From Qipengyuania intermedia (GTDB lineage: Bacteria; Pseudomonadota; Alphaproteobacteria; Sphingomonadales; Sphingomonadaceae), in the NCBI RefSeq assembly GCF_019711615.1, contig NZ_JAIGNS010000002.1, positions 1,041,501 to 1,105,500 of the forward strand: a stretch of DNA of 64,000 nucleotides. The letters are read 5' to 3'. Each line of letters starts with the position of its first letter. Position 1 is the first letter of the stretch. The translations under genes were made by a program, and so were the position numbers. Positions 13,738 to 60,203 of the stretch are shown piece after piece. The notes under the pieces are model-generated. The model saw only the letters and a program-made list of their open reading frames with translations, had not been told where the DNA came from and did not search any database.

Positions 13738-14733
13738 TCAGTCGTGCACGGCCTTCACCAGCGGACCGAGGAAAGGCGAGCCGCCAAGCCAGTCGACCTG
13801 TGTCTTCGCACTGACCTCGTTGATCGCGGTCTGCGGGATGCTTCCGCCGCTGACGGGCTGGCGGACGGGCCGTGTTCCCGGCGGCATGGCAAGGATGCTT
13901 GCCATCACGCGGGGAATATCCATCGGATCGGCCGACCGTCCGGAGCCGTCTTCTTCTCCCATCCGGGCAACGACCTGCGGATAGCCATCCGTATGCCGCG
14001 CATTCGCCCGGGCCGCGAGATCGCCGGAATAGCGATTGCGGTTGACCCAGACCTTCGTGGGATAGCCGCCCGGCTCGATCACGGTCACCTCTATATTGTG
14101 CGGCACCAACTCGTAGGCGAGCTGTTCGCCCATGGCTTCGACGGCGAACTTGGTCGCGGAATAATGTCCGCCATAGGGGATGATGACCCGGCCAAGCTGG
14201 CTGGAGATGCTGAAGATATGGCCGCTCTTGCGCGACCGCATCCCCGGCAGGACCGCGCGCACCAGCCGGTGATAGCCGAATACGTTCGTATCGAAAGCGA
14301 GCTTCGTCGCCTCCATGTCCTGCACTTCGACGGGGCCGGTAATCCCGATGCCCGCATTGTTGACGAGCACGTCCATGGGTCCGCCATTGATCCGCTCGGC
14401 TTCGGCAACCGCGGCAAGGACCATCTCGTCGTCGAGCACGTCGAGTTCGATGACATGGAGGTCTAGGTCCTTGTCCGCGGCAAGCTGGCGCAATTCGTTG
14501 CCTTCAGGCCGCGGCAAATTGCGCATTGTCGCAAAGACCTTTGCGCCGAGTTCGGCGAAATGGAGTGCGCTGAGGCGGCCGAACCCGCTGGAGCAGCCGG
14601 TAATGAGAATGGCTTGGCCGGACAGGTCGGGCGCCGCGCTGACGCTGTTACCCTGCGCGCGCGCAGCGGCAGCGGCGAGGGCGCCGGTGGCGGCGGCACC
14701 TGCGAGGAGAGTGCGGCGATTGATCGATGGCAT
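13738..14733 (-). CDS. Short-chain dehydrogenase/reductase with twin-arginine signal
   Basis: The first 27 residues (INRRTLLAGAAATGALAAAA) form a Tat-type signal with RR, and the classical SDR fold follows. The cofactor motif TGCSSGFG, the structural NNAGIG, the catalytic serine in SISSQLG and the YSATK active site are all present. The 331-residue length is longer than a plain SDR because of the signal and a C-terminal extension. Export through Tat would carry a pre-loaded NAD(P) cofactor to the periplasm, which is unusual for SDRs. The substrate is unknown. It sits between rplY and pth. Confidence 0.85.
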   Translation of the reverse strand: MPSINRRTLLAGAAATGALAAAAARAQGNSVSAAPDLSGQAILITGCSSGFGRLSALHFAELGAKVFATMRNLPRPEGNELRQLAADKDLDLHVIELDVLDDEMVLAAVAEAERINGGPMDVLVNNAGIGITGPVEVQDMEATKLAFDTNVFGYHRLVRAVLPGMRSRKSGHIFSISSQLGRVIIPYGGHYSATKFAVEAMGEQLAYELVPHNIEVTVIEPGGYPTKVWVNRNRYSGDLAARANARHTDGYPQVVARMGEEDGSGRSADPMDIPRVMASILAMPPGTRPVRQPVSGGSIPQTAINEVSAKTQVDWLGGSPFLGPLVKAVHD

Positions 14734-14785
14734 GGGCTTGGCTCCTTGTTCGCCAGCCAGCCTATCGCATCATGCGCACAAACGA

Positions 14786-14818
14786 AAACGCCGGACTTCG
14801 ATAGGAAGCCCGGCGTTT
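14786..14818 (-). terminator. Rho-independent terminator of rplY
   Basis: AAACGCCGGACTT (14786-14798) pairs with AAGCCCGGCGTTT (14806-14818), 12 of 13 positions matching with a 7-base loop. On the minus strand the stem is followed by a T-rich TTTTCGTTTG. It lies about 30 bp after the rplY stop and separates rplY from the downstream SDR and pth genes. Confidence 0.75.
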
Positions 14819-14847
14819 CGATTTTTCCGGAATGGAAGAAGAGGCGA

Positions 14848-15543
14848 TTACTCGCTCTTGTCTTCCTGTTCCTCGGCCGCGTCGGCGTCCGGACCCTGCT
14901 CGGTAGCGGCGGTTTCGCCAGCTTCCATGTCTTCGCCGGTCTGGTCTTCGCCTTCTTCGGTTTCCGACTTCTTCAGAGCGGACGGAGCAACGAGGGTTGC
15001 GATCGTGAAGTCGCGATCGGTGATCGCGCTTTCGCTACCTGCGGGCAGCGTAACTTCGCTGATGTGGATCGAATCGCCGACTTCCTTGCCGGTGACGTCG
15101 ATTTCGATCTCGCTCGGGATCTTGTCGTTTTCGCAGACAAGTTCCAGCTCGTGACGGACGACGTTGAGAACGCCGCCCTTCTTGAGGCCCGGCGACGCTT
15201 CTTCGTTGGTGAAGACGACGGGGACCGAAACTTCGATCTTGCCGCCCTTGACCATGCGGAAGAAGTCAACGTGCTCGGGGCGATCGTTGACGGGGTGGAG
15301 CGACACGTCCTTGGGAAGGGTCTTGATCTTCTTGCCGCCGAGTTCGATTTCGACGATCGAGTTCATGAAGTGGCCGGTGTCGAGCTGCTTGACCAGCTCC
15401 TTGGCTTCAACGTGAATCAGGGTGGGTTCTTCCTTGCCGCCATAGATTACGGCGGGGACGCGGCCTTCACGACGCAGTGCACGGGAGGCTCCCTTGCCAG
15501 CCCGTTCGCGCGCCTCGGCCGGAAGTGTCAGAGCATCGCTCAT
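14848..15543 (-). CDS. rplY: 50S ribosomal protein L25 (CTC form)
   Basis: L25 binds 5S rRNA in the large subunit. The 231-residue protein is the longer CTC/TL5 type. Residues 1 to about 90 are the 5S-binding domain, with [20 protein letters not shown] and the FHRMVKGGK-like FFRMVKGGK later. A beta-rich TL5 domain follows, ending in an acidic tail from about residue 190. [13 protein letters not shown] at 15543 is the natural N-terminus; the open frame extends 35 codons upstream without family similarity. A terminator hairpin follows the gene. Confidence 0.96.
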
Positions 15544-23505: not shown

Positions 23506-24260
23506 TCTTTCCAGCCGGTTAGGGTCAAAATCTCGAAAGTTTCGATGACTCGCCCCCGGTCGTTCGCACCGGCAAGGAATGCCTCTCGCGCTCTTTCGAG
23601 CGCTGCCTTGCCGAGCGGAGGGGGCGCAGAGGCAAGGCTGGAGCCGAGGCCCTGATCGCGCAGGTCCTGCACCAGGCGATCAAGCGAGGAGAAGGCCACC
23701 TCCACGCTCCGGCTGTCGACCACCTGGCGGCGGAACAGGGCTCTTTGCATGAGTCCCGATGCCGAAGCGTTGTCGACCAGCGGATGCATCCGTGCCGAGG
23801 GCCGGTCCGGTTCGGCAGCGATCATGGCGCGGCGCAGGTTCGCAAGGCTTCCTGAACCGATCATGCTGGCGAGGAGGATGCCATCCTCGGCGAGCGCAGC
23901 GCGCAGGTGGAGCAGGGCGCCCGGCAGGTCGTTGACCCGGCCGAGCGAGGCCAGGCTGACAATCAGGTCGAACTGGCCGCTGGGTAGCGGCGCCTCTTCA
24001 TCGAGGCTGCGAACGTCGGTTTCTTCGACAACGGCGCCGTTGCCTCTCAACGACAGGGCCAGCGTCCCGGTCCAGTCTCCGATCACCAGCACGCGCTTCG
24101 GCGCAAGTCGCATGAACTCGAGGCGCTCGAGAACGTCCTCGACCATGTCGTCCATGACGTAGCGCGCCGCATCGCGCTGGGACTGGCGGACCAGCAGGCG
24201 GCGCAGGCCGGCGATCCGGCGTTGGCGCGAGAAAATGCGGGGAGGCGACCGTGTTTCCAT
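23502..24260 (-). CDS. SAM-dependent methyltransferase domain protein (NDUFAF5/BioC-like)
   Basis: The 252-residue protein has a class I methyltransferase core. Motif I reads RVLVIGDWTG, and the acidic loop and motif IV region are in QFDLIVSLASLGRVNDLPG. The N-terminus IFSRQRRIAGLRR and the aligned RDAARYVMDDMVEDVLERL resemble the bacterial relatives of NDUFAF5, placed beside comF in many alphaproteobacteria. The start at 24260 is the likely ATG; a longer frame overlaps the comF leader. The substrate is not known, and a BioC-like role is only an alternative. Confidence 0.78.
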   Translation of the reverse strand: METRSPPRIFSRQRRIAGLRRLLVRQSQRDAARYVMDDMVEDVLERLEFMRLAPKRVLVIGDWTGTLALSLRGNGAVVEETDVRSLDEEAPLPSGQFDLIVSLASLGRVNDLPGALLHLRAALAEDGILLASMIGSGSLANLRRAMIAAEPDRPSARMHPLVDNASASGLMQRALFRRQVVDSRSVEVAFSSLDRLVQDLRDQGLGSSLASAPPPLGKAALERAREAFLAGANDRGRVIETFEILTLTGWKD

Positions 24261-24329
24261 GCTGGGCGCACTGCCGCTCTTGCCAGCGCGATGCAAGCGC
24301 GGCACGACAACGGCATGGGGAGATTAGCC

Positions 24330-25103
24330 ATGATCGGGAGACATTTGCGCGACGGTGCGGCTCCCCTCGTCGATCTCGTCTATCCTCCGCGCTGTCCTGC
24401 TTGCGGCGATGCGACCGGCGAACATGGCGGCCTGTGCCAGGAATGCTGGGGCGGTCTCGTAATTCCCGGCGATCCCAGCTGCAGCCTGTGCCAGCGCCCT
24501 TTCGGCGAAGGGACGCCCGATCGGGAACAGGTGTGTGCACCATGCCTCGGCAGGAAGCCCATCCACGACGGTATCGCTGCCGGAACGCTCTACACCGACG
24601 TCTCGCGCAAGCTCGTCCTCGGCTTCAAGCACGGTCGCAAGATCGGCCTTGCCCCTCTGCTGGCCCGGCTCATTGCTGCACGGGTTCCGCCGGGGCCTGT
24701 CGACAGGGTTATCGTCCCGGTCCCGCTGCATCGCTGGCGTCTTTGGACCCGCGGCTTCAACCAGGCTACGTTGCTGGGGAGGGAATTGGAACGATCAGGG
24801 CGGGGCAGGCTGTTGGTTGACGCGCTCGAACGCACCCGGGCGACACCCAGCCTCGGCGGAATGGGCGCTAAAGCCCGTGCGAAGGTTCTCGGCGGTGCGA
24901 TAAGAGTTCGCGCGCCCATGGTGGCTCAGCTCTAAGGTCGGGACATTCTCTTGGTCGACGACGTGCTGACCAGCGGCGCTACAAGCGAAGCATGCGTGCG
25001 AGCCCTTAAAAAGGCAGGAGCCCGGTCAGTCGTAATCTGCTGTTTTTCACGGGTCCTCGACGAGGCACTCGTCAGCGCCAAGCGACAGAAGCTCTCCCAA
25101 TAA
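24330..25103 (+). pseudogene. comF: ComF-family phosphoribosyltransferase-like protein, interrupted by in-frame TAA
   Basis: ComF proteins are linked to DNA uptake and helicase partners. The N-terminus is intact, with four-cysteine zinc clusters (PPRCPACGD, CQECW, CSLCQRPF, CAPCLG) and VPVPLHRWRLWTRGFNQA. At 24933-24935 the frame reads GCT CAG CTC TAA GGT CGG GAC ATT. Beyond that stop, in the same frame, the phosphoribosyltransferase motif LLVDDVLTSGAT and the normal C-terminus continue to a TAA at 25101-25103. Relatives typically have LKGR or LRGR here, so one A-to-T change (AAA to TAA) explains the stop. The ATG at 24330 has GGGGAG upstream. Sequencing error is possible. Confidence 0.85.
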
Positions 25104-25345
25104 GCGAAACGCCCGGAACCTTTCGGTCCCGGGCGCCACGTGACGAAATACACCGGACCCGTCTTGCGACTAGATGCAAACCCCCCAGTATGCATCGGGT
25201 CCTATCCCTCATGGTTACCGGGTGCGCCGCATTAGTACCCCCATGCGGCAGCGGACCCGGGACCCCCTGAACCCGAGCCGTCTCGCGACACCCAAGATCC
25301 GGTTGGCAGACCTCACATTGCCTGCGAGAAGGAACATCACTCAAA
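25104..25345 (-). ncRNA. Candidate structured non-coding RNA in a 345-bp gap (strand tentative)
   Basis: The gap 25104-25448 contains no convincing protein gene but many nested inverted repeats. GTGACG (25140-25145) can pair with CATCAC (25335-25340, one G-U) as a closing stem. Within it are GGACCC/GGGTCC (25155-25160, 25197-25202) around GATGCA/TGCATC, then CCGGGT/ACCCGG (25218-25223, 25255-25260) around GCCGCAT/ATGCGGC, and TCTCGC/GCGAGA (25281-25286, 25324-25329). The end hairpin at 25111-25134 has a GAAA loop only on the minus strand, which favours that strand. A 6S-type RNA is one possibility, but I cannot assign a family. Confidence 0.4.
25111..25134 (-). terminator. Stem-loop with GAAA tetraloop, probable terminator
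   Basis: GCCCGGAACC (25111-25120) pairs with GGTCCCGGGC (25125-25134), nine of ten positions. On the minus strand the loop is GAAA closed by C-G, and GTTTCGCTT follows the stem. It could end a minus-strand transcript of the structured gap, or serve comF on the plus strand, where no T-run follows. Confidence 0.5.
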
Positions 25346-25448
25346 CATGCCGCCCATTGAATAGGCATTCGCAATTTGGGTCGATTTTGAAACACCCTTG
25401 TGGTTATCGTGCAACAAGCTGTCGTATTTTTACAAAACGGACCATTCC

Positions 25449-25823
25449 ATGACCATTTCCAAAACCGAACGCGAGCAGGGAAAGGTCTTTGCACCGAAGT
25501 TCGATGCCAACGGATTGCTCACCGCGGTGGTCGTGAACGCGGCGAGTCGCGAGGTCCTGATGGTCGCGTTCATGGACGCAGAGGCGCTGGATAAAACGAT
25601 CGAGACGGGGCTGGCCCACTTTCATTCGCGGTCTCGTGGCATGTTGTGGCTGAAGGGCGAAACGTCGGGCAATGTGCTGCGAGTGGAAAAGATCATGGTC
25701 GATTGCGATCAGGATGCGTTGGTCTTGGAATGCAGCCCGGCGGGACCGACCTGTCACACAGGGGCGACCAGCTGTTTCTATCGCAAGCTCGAAGACGGCG
25801 TTCTCCAACCCGTCAACACTTGA
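25449..25823 (+). CDS. hisI: Phosphoribosyl-AMP cyclohydrolase
   Basis: HisI opens the purine ring of phosphoribosyl-AMP, the third step of histidine synthesis. The 124-residue protein has VVVNAASREVLMVAFMD, LAHFHSRSRGMLWLKGETSGN and the metal site VDCDQDALVLEC followed by CHTGATSCF. It is monofunctional, with no HisE domain, as usual in alphaproteobacteria. No other his gene is nearby. The ATG at 25449 gives the family N-terminus. Immediately after its stop lies the operator-like repeat of the MerR gene. Confidence 0.97.
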   Translation: MTISKTEREQGKVFAPKFDANGLLTAVVVNAASREVLMVAFMDAEALDKTIETGLAHFHSRSRGMLWLKGETSGNVLRVEKIMVDCDQDALVLECSPAGPTCHTGATSCFYRKLEDGVLQPVNT

Positions 25824-57071: not shown

Positions 57072-58997
<1,926 letters not shown>

Positions 58998-59017
58998 GGC
59001 TCCTGATGAAAACCCCG

Positions 59018-59050
59018 ACCGCCATCGGTGCGAAATGCGCCGGTGGCGGT
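59018..59050 (+). terminator. Intercistronic hairpin between dnaK and dnaJ (attenuator)
   Basis: ACCGCCATCGGTGC (59018-59031) pairs with GCGCCGGTGGCGGT (59037-59050), 13 of 14 positions including a G-U pair, around GAAAT. AAAACC and GGATTTT extend the stem, and a short T-run follows. It could reduce dnaJ expression relative to dnaK. Confidence 0.6.
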
Positions 59051-59075
59051 TGGATTTTCAGCAGGCGGGATCATC

Positions 59076-60203
59076 ATGTCAGCTACTGAAATCGACTTTT
59101 ACGAATTACTCGGCGTCAGCCGGGATGCGGATGGCGCGACGATCAAGTCCGCTTATCGCAAGCTCGCGATGAAGCACCATCCGGACCGCAATCCCGGGTG
59201 CGCCGAGAGCGAGAACACATTCAAGGCGGTCAGCGCCGCTTATGAATGCCTCAAGGACCCGCAGAAACGCGCAGCCTACGACCGCTTCGGTCACGAGGCC
59301 TTCACGCAGGGAATGCAGGGCGGGGGCGGCCACGGCCACCCGGGCGCCGACTTCGGCGATATCGGCGATATCTTCGAGACCATTTTCGGCAGCGCCTTCG
59401 GTGGCGGTGGCCGGGCGCAGCCGCGGCGCGGGGCAGACCTGCGCTACGACATGGAGGTCACTCTCGAAGAGGCTTTCGACGGTAAATCGACCGAGATCGA
59501 AATCGAAGTCAGCCGTTCGTGCGAGACTTGTCACGGCAGCGGCGCGACGCCGGGCACGCAGAAGCGGACCTGCAATTTGTGCTCTGGGCAGGGGAAGGTC
59601 CGTGCAAAGCAGGGCTTCTTCGTCGTCGAACGGCCCTGTCCCAACTGCCACGGCGATGGCGAGATCATCACCAGTCCCTGCAGGGATTGTCGCGGCGAAG
59701 GTCAGGTCGACGTTCCGCAAAAGATCGAGATCGACATCCCCCCGGGCGTCGATACCGGCACGCGCATCCGCCTCTCGGGCAAGGGCGAGGCCGGTCCGCG
59801 CGGCGCGGCACCGGGCGATCTCTACATCTTCGTCCATGTAAAGCAGCATCCGATCTTCGTGCGCGAAGGAACGACGCTGGCGACGCGGGTGCCGATCAGC
59901 TTTACGAAGGCTGCTCTTGGCGGTTCGATCGATATTCCCGGCCTGGATGGCGAGGAAATCACGCTCGAAATTCCCGCCGGTATCCAGTCCGGCAGGCAGC
60001 TGCGTCAGCGCGGCGCGGGGATGCCCATCCTCCAGGGGCGCGGTCGCGGAGACATGGTGGTGGAAATCGCCGTCGAAACCCCGACCAAGTTGAGCAAGCA
60101 ACAGCGCGAAATTCTTGAGCAATTCCGCGAAACAGAGACCGGTGACGAATGCCCCGAAAGCCGGGGTTTCTTCAACAAGATCAAGGAAGTGTTCGGCGGT
60201 TAG
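59076..60203 (+). CDS. dnaJ: Co-chaperone DnaJ (Hsp40)
   Basis: DnaJ delivers substrates to DnaK and stimulates its ATPase. The 375-residue protein has the J-domain with HPD at 35-37, a Gly-rich linker (GGGGHGHPGADFGDIG), and four zinc-finger repeats (CETCHGSG, CNLCSGQG, CPNCHGDG, CRDCRGEG). The C-terminal substrate domains end RGFFNKIKEVFGG. MSATEIDFYELLGVSRDA at 59076 is the real start. Confidence 0.98.
   Translation: MSATEIDFYELLGVSRDADGATIKSAYRKLAMKHHPDRNPGCAESENTFKAVSAAYECLKDPQKRAAYDRFGHEAFTQGMQGGGGHGHPGADFGDIGDIFETIFGSAFGGGGRAQPRRGADLRYDMEVTLEEAFDGKSTEIEIEVSRSCETCHGSGATPGTQKRTCNLCSGQGKVRAKQGFFVVERPCPNCHGDGEIITSPCRDCRGEGQVDVPQKIEIDIPPGVDTGTRIRLSGKGEAGPRGAAPGDLYIFVHVKQHPIFVREGTTLATRVPISFTKAALGGSIDIPGLDGEEITLEIPAGIQSGRQLRQRGAGMPILQGRGRGDMVVEIAVETPTKLSKQQREILEQFRETETGDECPESRGFFNKIKEVFGG

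Follow-up and report, generated by a model that had tools for sequence, protein, structure and literature searches.

Sphingomonads matter in bioremediation and, together with Zymomonas, in fuel production. 6S RNA is a long rod with one central bulge that mimics an open promoter, and the classical partner of GGA-rich decoys is CsrA. Few RNA regulators of sphingomonads are described in the literature that we searched. SuhB of Sphingopyxis granuli is 61 nt long and is described as conserved in Sphingopyxis (PMC6563040). Small RNAs with mapped ends, the Zms RNAs among them, exist in Zymomonas mobilis (PMC6970203, PMC7566282), and one of these could be the same RNA as the one described here. Among the open-access papers searched, we recognised none as describing this RNA.

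The window analysed here is a stretch of 64,000 nt from the forward strand of Qipengyuania intermedia GCF_019711615.1 (NZ_JAIGNS010000002.1, positions 1,041,501-1,105,500). The genome containing it measures 2.70 Mb, and all coordinates below are window positions unless a contig or locus is named. A 345-bp gap (25104-25448) is flanked by comF (24222-25103) and hisI (25449-25823), both on the plus strand. An earlier note had read this gap as a structured RNA, possibly of the 6S type. Synteny, covariation, and conserved promoter-like elements strongly support a minus-strand RNA gene with a terminator; the 6S suggestion did not survive. We consider it quite probable that positions 25104-25326 of the minus strand form a stand-alone structured RNA gene of ~223 nt (ends approximate by a few nt), equipped with its own promoter and terminator and most likely acting in trans. 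The gene would be convergent with comF and divergent from hisI. The comF frame contains an in-frame TAA (24933-24935); either the gene has recently become a pseudogene or the sequence has an erroneous base here. At this position, the stop is absent from all 57 other genus homologues (55 have an amino acid, 2 a gap), and six genus homologues show stops at other positions of the alignment.

Of the 60 genus genomes searched, 58 gave a match to the gap sequence, and all 58 loci have the RNA between comF and hisI. One of the two genomes without a sequence match (G028) gave a covariance-model match (L134), again between comF and hisI. The core of the 58 homologues measures 219-260 nt, and its length differences (1, 2, and further values that are no multiples of three) show that it is not a coding frame. 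To cover larger taxonomic ranges, we used two covariance models, R1 for the comF-hisI type RNA and R2 built solely from 20 RNAs of a second, lolC-associated type described below. From the order, 296 genomes were sampled; R1 matched 149, each of them a member of the window's family, and R2 matched 177 of the 296, including two weak matches outside the family (G087 and G152). Neither model gave a match in the listed genomes of four genera of the same family (g15, g17, g19, g36). In 385 genomes of the class, R1 found eight matches, five in the family and three weak ones outside; the best of the latter (G375) corresponds to a terminator after an apparently coding stretch and lacks the upstream element. 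R2 yielded 28 matches in the same 385 genomes, five within the family and 23 outside. The outside matches comprised 17 restricted to the terminator, one to the last third of the model (G436, 28.7 bits), and five over the full model at 22-24 bits, which we take for chance matches. An exact pattern of the 3' module occurred in at least 120 stretches of GTDB genomes; among the 80 matches listed, 78 had titles naming Sphingomonas or another Sphingo- taxon, one Hephaestia, and one an uncultured bacterium. Judged by these searches, the RNA is spread widely in the family but is not universal. Most genomes have a single match. In G089, R2 matched twice over its full range, at ~29 bits, and several of the other second matches were confined to the terminator. 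The genome of the window holds one full-length copy, its remaining five matches all having E >= 0.8, and the RNA sequence found no match in a plasmid collection. A multi-copy or mobile element was rejected on these two grounds.

Covariation was counted on an alignment (A1) of 37 of 43 dereplicated sequences, and the six sequences left out were added in a second count. Across 49 pairs, 92.3% of the cells in A1 were standard-paired, compared with 86.0% in shuffles and 30-42% when one side was slid. Double changes were found in 30 of the 49 pairs, compared with 12.5 in shuffles. With all 43 sequences, the values were 90.1% paired cells (shuffles, 82.5%; slid, 31-41%) and double changes in 34 of 49 pairs (shuffles, 18.4). 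In both sets, none of 500 shuffles reached the observed pairing or double-change values. Five helices are preserved by compensatory change, namely H1, H4, the inner H5 hairpin, the GNRA hairpin, and the terminator. An unbiased scan of all column pairs in 98 sequences was run with our own script, modelled on R-scape but not R-scape itself, in which the null re-places inferred substitutions on the tree. Four pairs had E < 0.1, all of them helix pairs in the terminator, the first hairpin, and the G-loop hairpin; an H1 pair ranked second. Of the top 16 pairs, 14 fall in H1, H4, the inner H5 hairpin, or the terminator, one in H3, and one (75-197) outside any helix.

Read from the predicted 5' end on the minus strand, the RNA starts with H1, a GCAGGC/GTCTGC hairpin (25306-25325) with double changes in 6 of 6 pairs and 92.8% of the cells paired (93.8% with 43 sequences). 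Two further stems are mutually exclusive because they overlap: H2 (CACCG/CGGTG), which was used in R1, is paired in 81.9% of the cells, and the competing hairpin H3 (GGTGC/GCGCC) in 92.9%. H3 contributes one pair (51-61) to the unbiased scan but, counted by itself, showed little covariation beyond shuffles. The alignments then reveal a conserved unpaired motif, GGTTCAGGGGG (25263-25273), whose counterpart in the lolC type is GGTTCRGGGA. It is followed by H4 (25218-25260), made up of CCGGGT/ACCCGG with the inner stem GCCGCAT/ATGCGGC, with double changes in 8 of 13 pairs and 93.7% paired cells (89.2% with 43 sequences). The next conserved segment, AACNATGAGGGAT (25204-25216), has a C at the N in the window. 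This base, 25213 within AACGATGAGGG, is a G in the other 36 sequences of A1, and the C breaks one possible pair with TCGTC. The three-way domain H5 (25155-25202) combines GGACCC/GGGTCC, GATGCA/TGCATC with the loop ACTGGGGGG, and GTC-GCAA-GAC. The core of its inner hairpin (97.3% paired) and the GNRA hairpin (95.8%) both carry double changes. The outer stem is weaker, with 79.5% of the cells paired in 37 sequences, 76.7% in 43, and one double-change pair. A conserved linker, TTCGTCACGTGGC (25135-25147), may pair with the GATGA of 25204-25216; this candidate pairing, GATGA/TCGTC, is feasible in 99.5% of the cells yet invariant, and hence carries no covariation signal. The RNA would end at an intrinsic terminator (25104-25135) consisting of an 11-bp GC hairpin with a GAAA loop and a T-rich tail. 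The hairpin is paired in 99.5% of the cells and has double changes in 4 pairs. In two low-GC relatives (L311, L312), a long T-run follows the hairpin; in the genome of the window the tail (TTTCGCTT) is modest.

All inverted repeats that the earlier note had named are present at the positions given. Of its stems, CCGGGT/ACCCGG with GCCGCAT/ATGCGGC, GATGCA/TGCATC, and the terminal hairpin belong to the conserved helices, and its GGACCC/GGGTCC stem holds less well, as described for the outer stem of H5. Two proposed stems had to be dropped. The closing stem (GTGATG/CGTCAC) showed 62.9% paired cells and zero double changes, and TCTCGC/GCGAGA, with 43.8%, lies at the level of shuffles. Two conserved hairpins, H1 (25325-25306) and the GNRA-capped GTC-GCAA-GAC (25170-25161), were absent from that list. 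The UGUUC next to the closing stem, which had been put forward in favour of 6S, falls together with this stem, since GTGATG-TTC overlaps the likely -10 element and would precede the start of the RNA.

As a background for folding stability, 220-nt stretches were drawn at 200 positions across the window and read in both directions, giving 400 window-strands. Compared with the stretch of this length that starts at 25110, read on the minus strand, 1 of 400 had an equally low folding energy and 5 of 400 an equally extreme z-score; the plus strand was unremarkable (212 of 400 and 35 of 400, respectively). The predicted transcript 25326-25104 has a fold z of -3.65, and none of 200 shuffles was as stable. 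Of 1788 cells in the minus-strand reading, 108 are G-U and 38 are A-C, and this excess favours a minus-strand RNA. Elsewhere in the window, the stretches 58881-59100, 2241-2460, and 14401-14940 have lower folding z values on the plus strand (-4.4 to -5.8) than the RNA.

Upstream of the RNA, on the same strand, lies the element TGTTGC-N8-CACA (25399-25416), an imperfect inverted repeat of the form TTGTTG-N8-CCACAA. It is present in all 111 comF-hisI type loci examined, 86 times exactly and 25 times with one mismatch; with one mismatch or none, it appeared in 6 of 1110 shuffled stretches. The distance from its start to the first model position is 75-77 nt in 105 of the 111 loci and 50, 56, 60, 68, 74, and 123 nt in the others; the element at 123 nt (L130) may be a chance match. 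It is a probable binding site for a transcription factor. Its long form, TGTTGCANGATAACCACA, has no other site in the genome at up to two mismatches, and the three sites at three mismatches equal the number obtained with a reversed-pattern control. A multi-gene regulon under the long form was rejected on this basis. A second block, CAAAAT (25384-25389), lies 9 nt after the element, and AAA[AT] occurs there in 110 of the 111 loci. The hexamer TTCAAT (25356-25361), 55 nt downstream of where the element starts, would represent the -35 box; the first position is T in 111 and the second in 105 of the 111 loci. TTTGAT is the commonest variant in relatives, and TGACAA is found in lolC-type loci. Another 17 nt downstream, GATGTT (25333-25338), which overlaps one arm of the abandoned closing stem, is the candidate -10 box, with A at the second position in 106 of 111 loci and a poor match to the -10 consensus. 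These promoter boxes are inferred, as are the transcript ends, the factor, and the mode of action. The locus has two marks of a stand-alone bacterial sRNA gene, a predicted intrinsic terminator at the 3' end and the lack of a conserved reading frame; the conserved upstream element and the -35/-10-like boxes at fixed spacing may represent a promoter of its own.

The RNA is found in a second genomic setting as well. Among 90 loci of the wider R1 search, 59 contained comF and hisI, one comF only, and 30 neither. Of these 30, 29 carry lolC, from which the RNA is divergent, at a distance of 83-308 nt in 23 loci and 0.7-1.5 kb in six; in G280, it is flanked by pyrG and proS. The lolC-type RNAs are shorter (122-181 nt as cut out), and most members have GGUUCRGGGA, GGGGG, UCGUC, and the GC-rich terminator in common. 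In their 3' part, double changes occur in 8 of 18 pairs, all eight in the terminator, and none of 500 shuffles scored as high; the hairpin matching GATGA/TCGTC has zero double changes. The overall similarity of the two types is low, with R1 scores of 22.7-39.8 bits on lolC types, and the case for their homology is made by short motifs together with the 3' module and the upstream element. In the genome of the window, the sole R2 match is the comF-hisI RNA at full length (E = 1.5e-8), which is not fully independent evidence because the R2 training set was chosen from R1 matches. The upstream element, which neither model includes, does provide independent evidence. It is present in all 30 lolC-type loci (25 exact, 4 with one mismatch, 1 with two), and in 29 of them a -35-like TGAC follows the start of the element by 55-56 nt, a spacing shared with the comF-hisI type. 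Given the R2 match and the like spacing, we read the two types as one RNA family at two alternative loci.

Gene, strand, structure, terminator, both loci, and the conserved upstream element are supported by these sequence comparisons. In the mechanism that we propose, transcription would start from a promoter at approximately 25361-25333, helped by a factor bound at TGTTGC-N8-CACA, and would end at the intrinsic terminator, immediately beyond comF. In other sphingomonads, the gene is located upstream of lolC or proS-lolC and is again accompanied by the upstream element and the 3' module. Stable hairpins would present the conserved unpaired G-rich segments GGUUCRGGGR, GAUGAGGGAU, and GGGGG, which would then pair with C-rich mRNA sites (our first choice) or hold a protein. 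Regulation in trans by means of these invariant unpaired segments is the function that we consider most likely.

Whether the RNA belongs to a described family was examined with Rfam 15. Between 24900 and 25650, no match was obtained up to E = 10 except a partial one to Actino-pnp (RF01688), and the whole window gave none at the gathering threshold. The Actino-pnp match reaches 21.3 bits against a gathering score of 47.7 and spans model positions 15-50 of 63, that is, the terminator hairpin only; this candidate was rejected. In 20 loci of relatives, the neighbouring tRNA alone exceeded threshold, and the lower-threshold matches in seven of them all stayed below cut-off. A match of 27.9 bits (cut-off 45) to the alphaproteobacterial ar35 at L154:1557-1673, minus strand, covers most of a lolC-type RNA. 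At L146:1388-1485, minus strand, a ROSE-like thermometer match of 36.4 bits (cut-off 45) lies near a lolC-type RNA and just before an ORF that we take for an Hsp20-type heat-shock protein. Elsewhere in the genome of the window, 6S was matched at C1:53984-54151 with 45.2 bits (E 7.6e-8), slightly short of the cut-off of 46.4, and the RNase P and tmRNA matches, also located elsewhere, are both over their cut-offs. The 6S guess therefore fails, all the more as the gap gave no 6S match, its helices form a row of hairpins, and the closing stem is not conserved; tmRNA and RNase P were likewise rejected. That the RNA is a divergent member of one of these families, for which the weak Actino-pnp match could be cited, is very improbable when three of the four have matches elsewhere in the genome. 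The RNA thus appears to be new in the sense that it has no Rfam 15 match and was not found in the literature searched.

The most serious competitor to a trans-acting regulator is an RNA of the housekeeping kind whose conserved G-rich loops bind and sequester a protein or a component of the ribosome, similar to 6S or CsrB in action and to neither in identity. We regard this as possible, though clearly the less likely reading. One full-length match per genome as a rule, the wide distribution in the family, and several repeated G-rich unpaired motifs on a stable scaffold would suit it, but its partner is hypothetical and the genome has a separate 6S match. In a search of 26 genomes, CsrA was absent from 25, including that of the window, and a CsrA decoy was rejected for this reason; the only match, G052:C195:11-163, starts at base 11 of its contig in an assembly that is 75% complete and 4% contaminated, and is possibly contamination. 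It is improbable that the RNA is instead a cis element, either a long 5' leader regulating hisI or an antisense RNA of comF. Such a role could explain why its neighbours are comF and hisI in all 58 loci of the genus and 59 of the 90 wider ones; however, the RNA is divergent from hisI, its terminator sits beside the comF stop, and in other genera RNA and upstream element occur beside lolC or proS. The neighbours are therefore unlikely targets in cis, and the fact that they change while RNA, upstream element, and terminator stay together argues for action in trans. Finally, GC-rich inverted repeats and a nearly invariant 13-bp linker might be expected of a DNA site that binds a protein or serves recombination and forms hairpins by chance. 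The compensatory changes, the G-U enrichment on one strand, and the shared direction of promoter-like boxes and terminator make this reading highly unlikely.

A bolder reading, offered with more doubt than conviction, is a lineage-specific global regulator of 6S-like breadth, which would present several conserved G-rich loops to one protein or to the translation machinery. It would be expressed under a dedicated factor bound at the upstream element, and its gene would form an intact unit of element, promoter, RNA, and terminator at two unrelated chromosomal sites. An RNA that is widespread in the family, has no Rfam 15 match, and follows an upstream element of unusual rigidity is well suited as a candidate core regulator. 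With the alignments, the models, and the history of the two loci, its transcription and structure and the effect of its deletion can be tested directly in laboratory strains.

Compared with known systems, the RNA shares with 6S RNA (RF00013) the stand-alone organisation, a similar length, and conservation within a lineage, but it consists of several independent hairpins with G-rich loops and has no Rfam match. Actino-pnp RNA (RF01688) has a GC-rich hairpin of similar sequence, and the likeness is limited to the terminator hairpin at a score below cut-off. The CsrB/RsmZ decoys likewise display repeated GGA-containing unpaired motifs on a hairpin scaffold, whereas no CsrA was found in the genome of the window. 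Trans-acting sRNAs with intrinsic terminators such as SuhB and the Zms RNAs are likewise stand-alone sphingomonad genes, and the RNA described here ends in a hairpin and a T-rich tail. It differs from SuhB in size, with ~223 nt compared with 61 nt.
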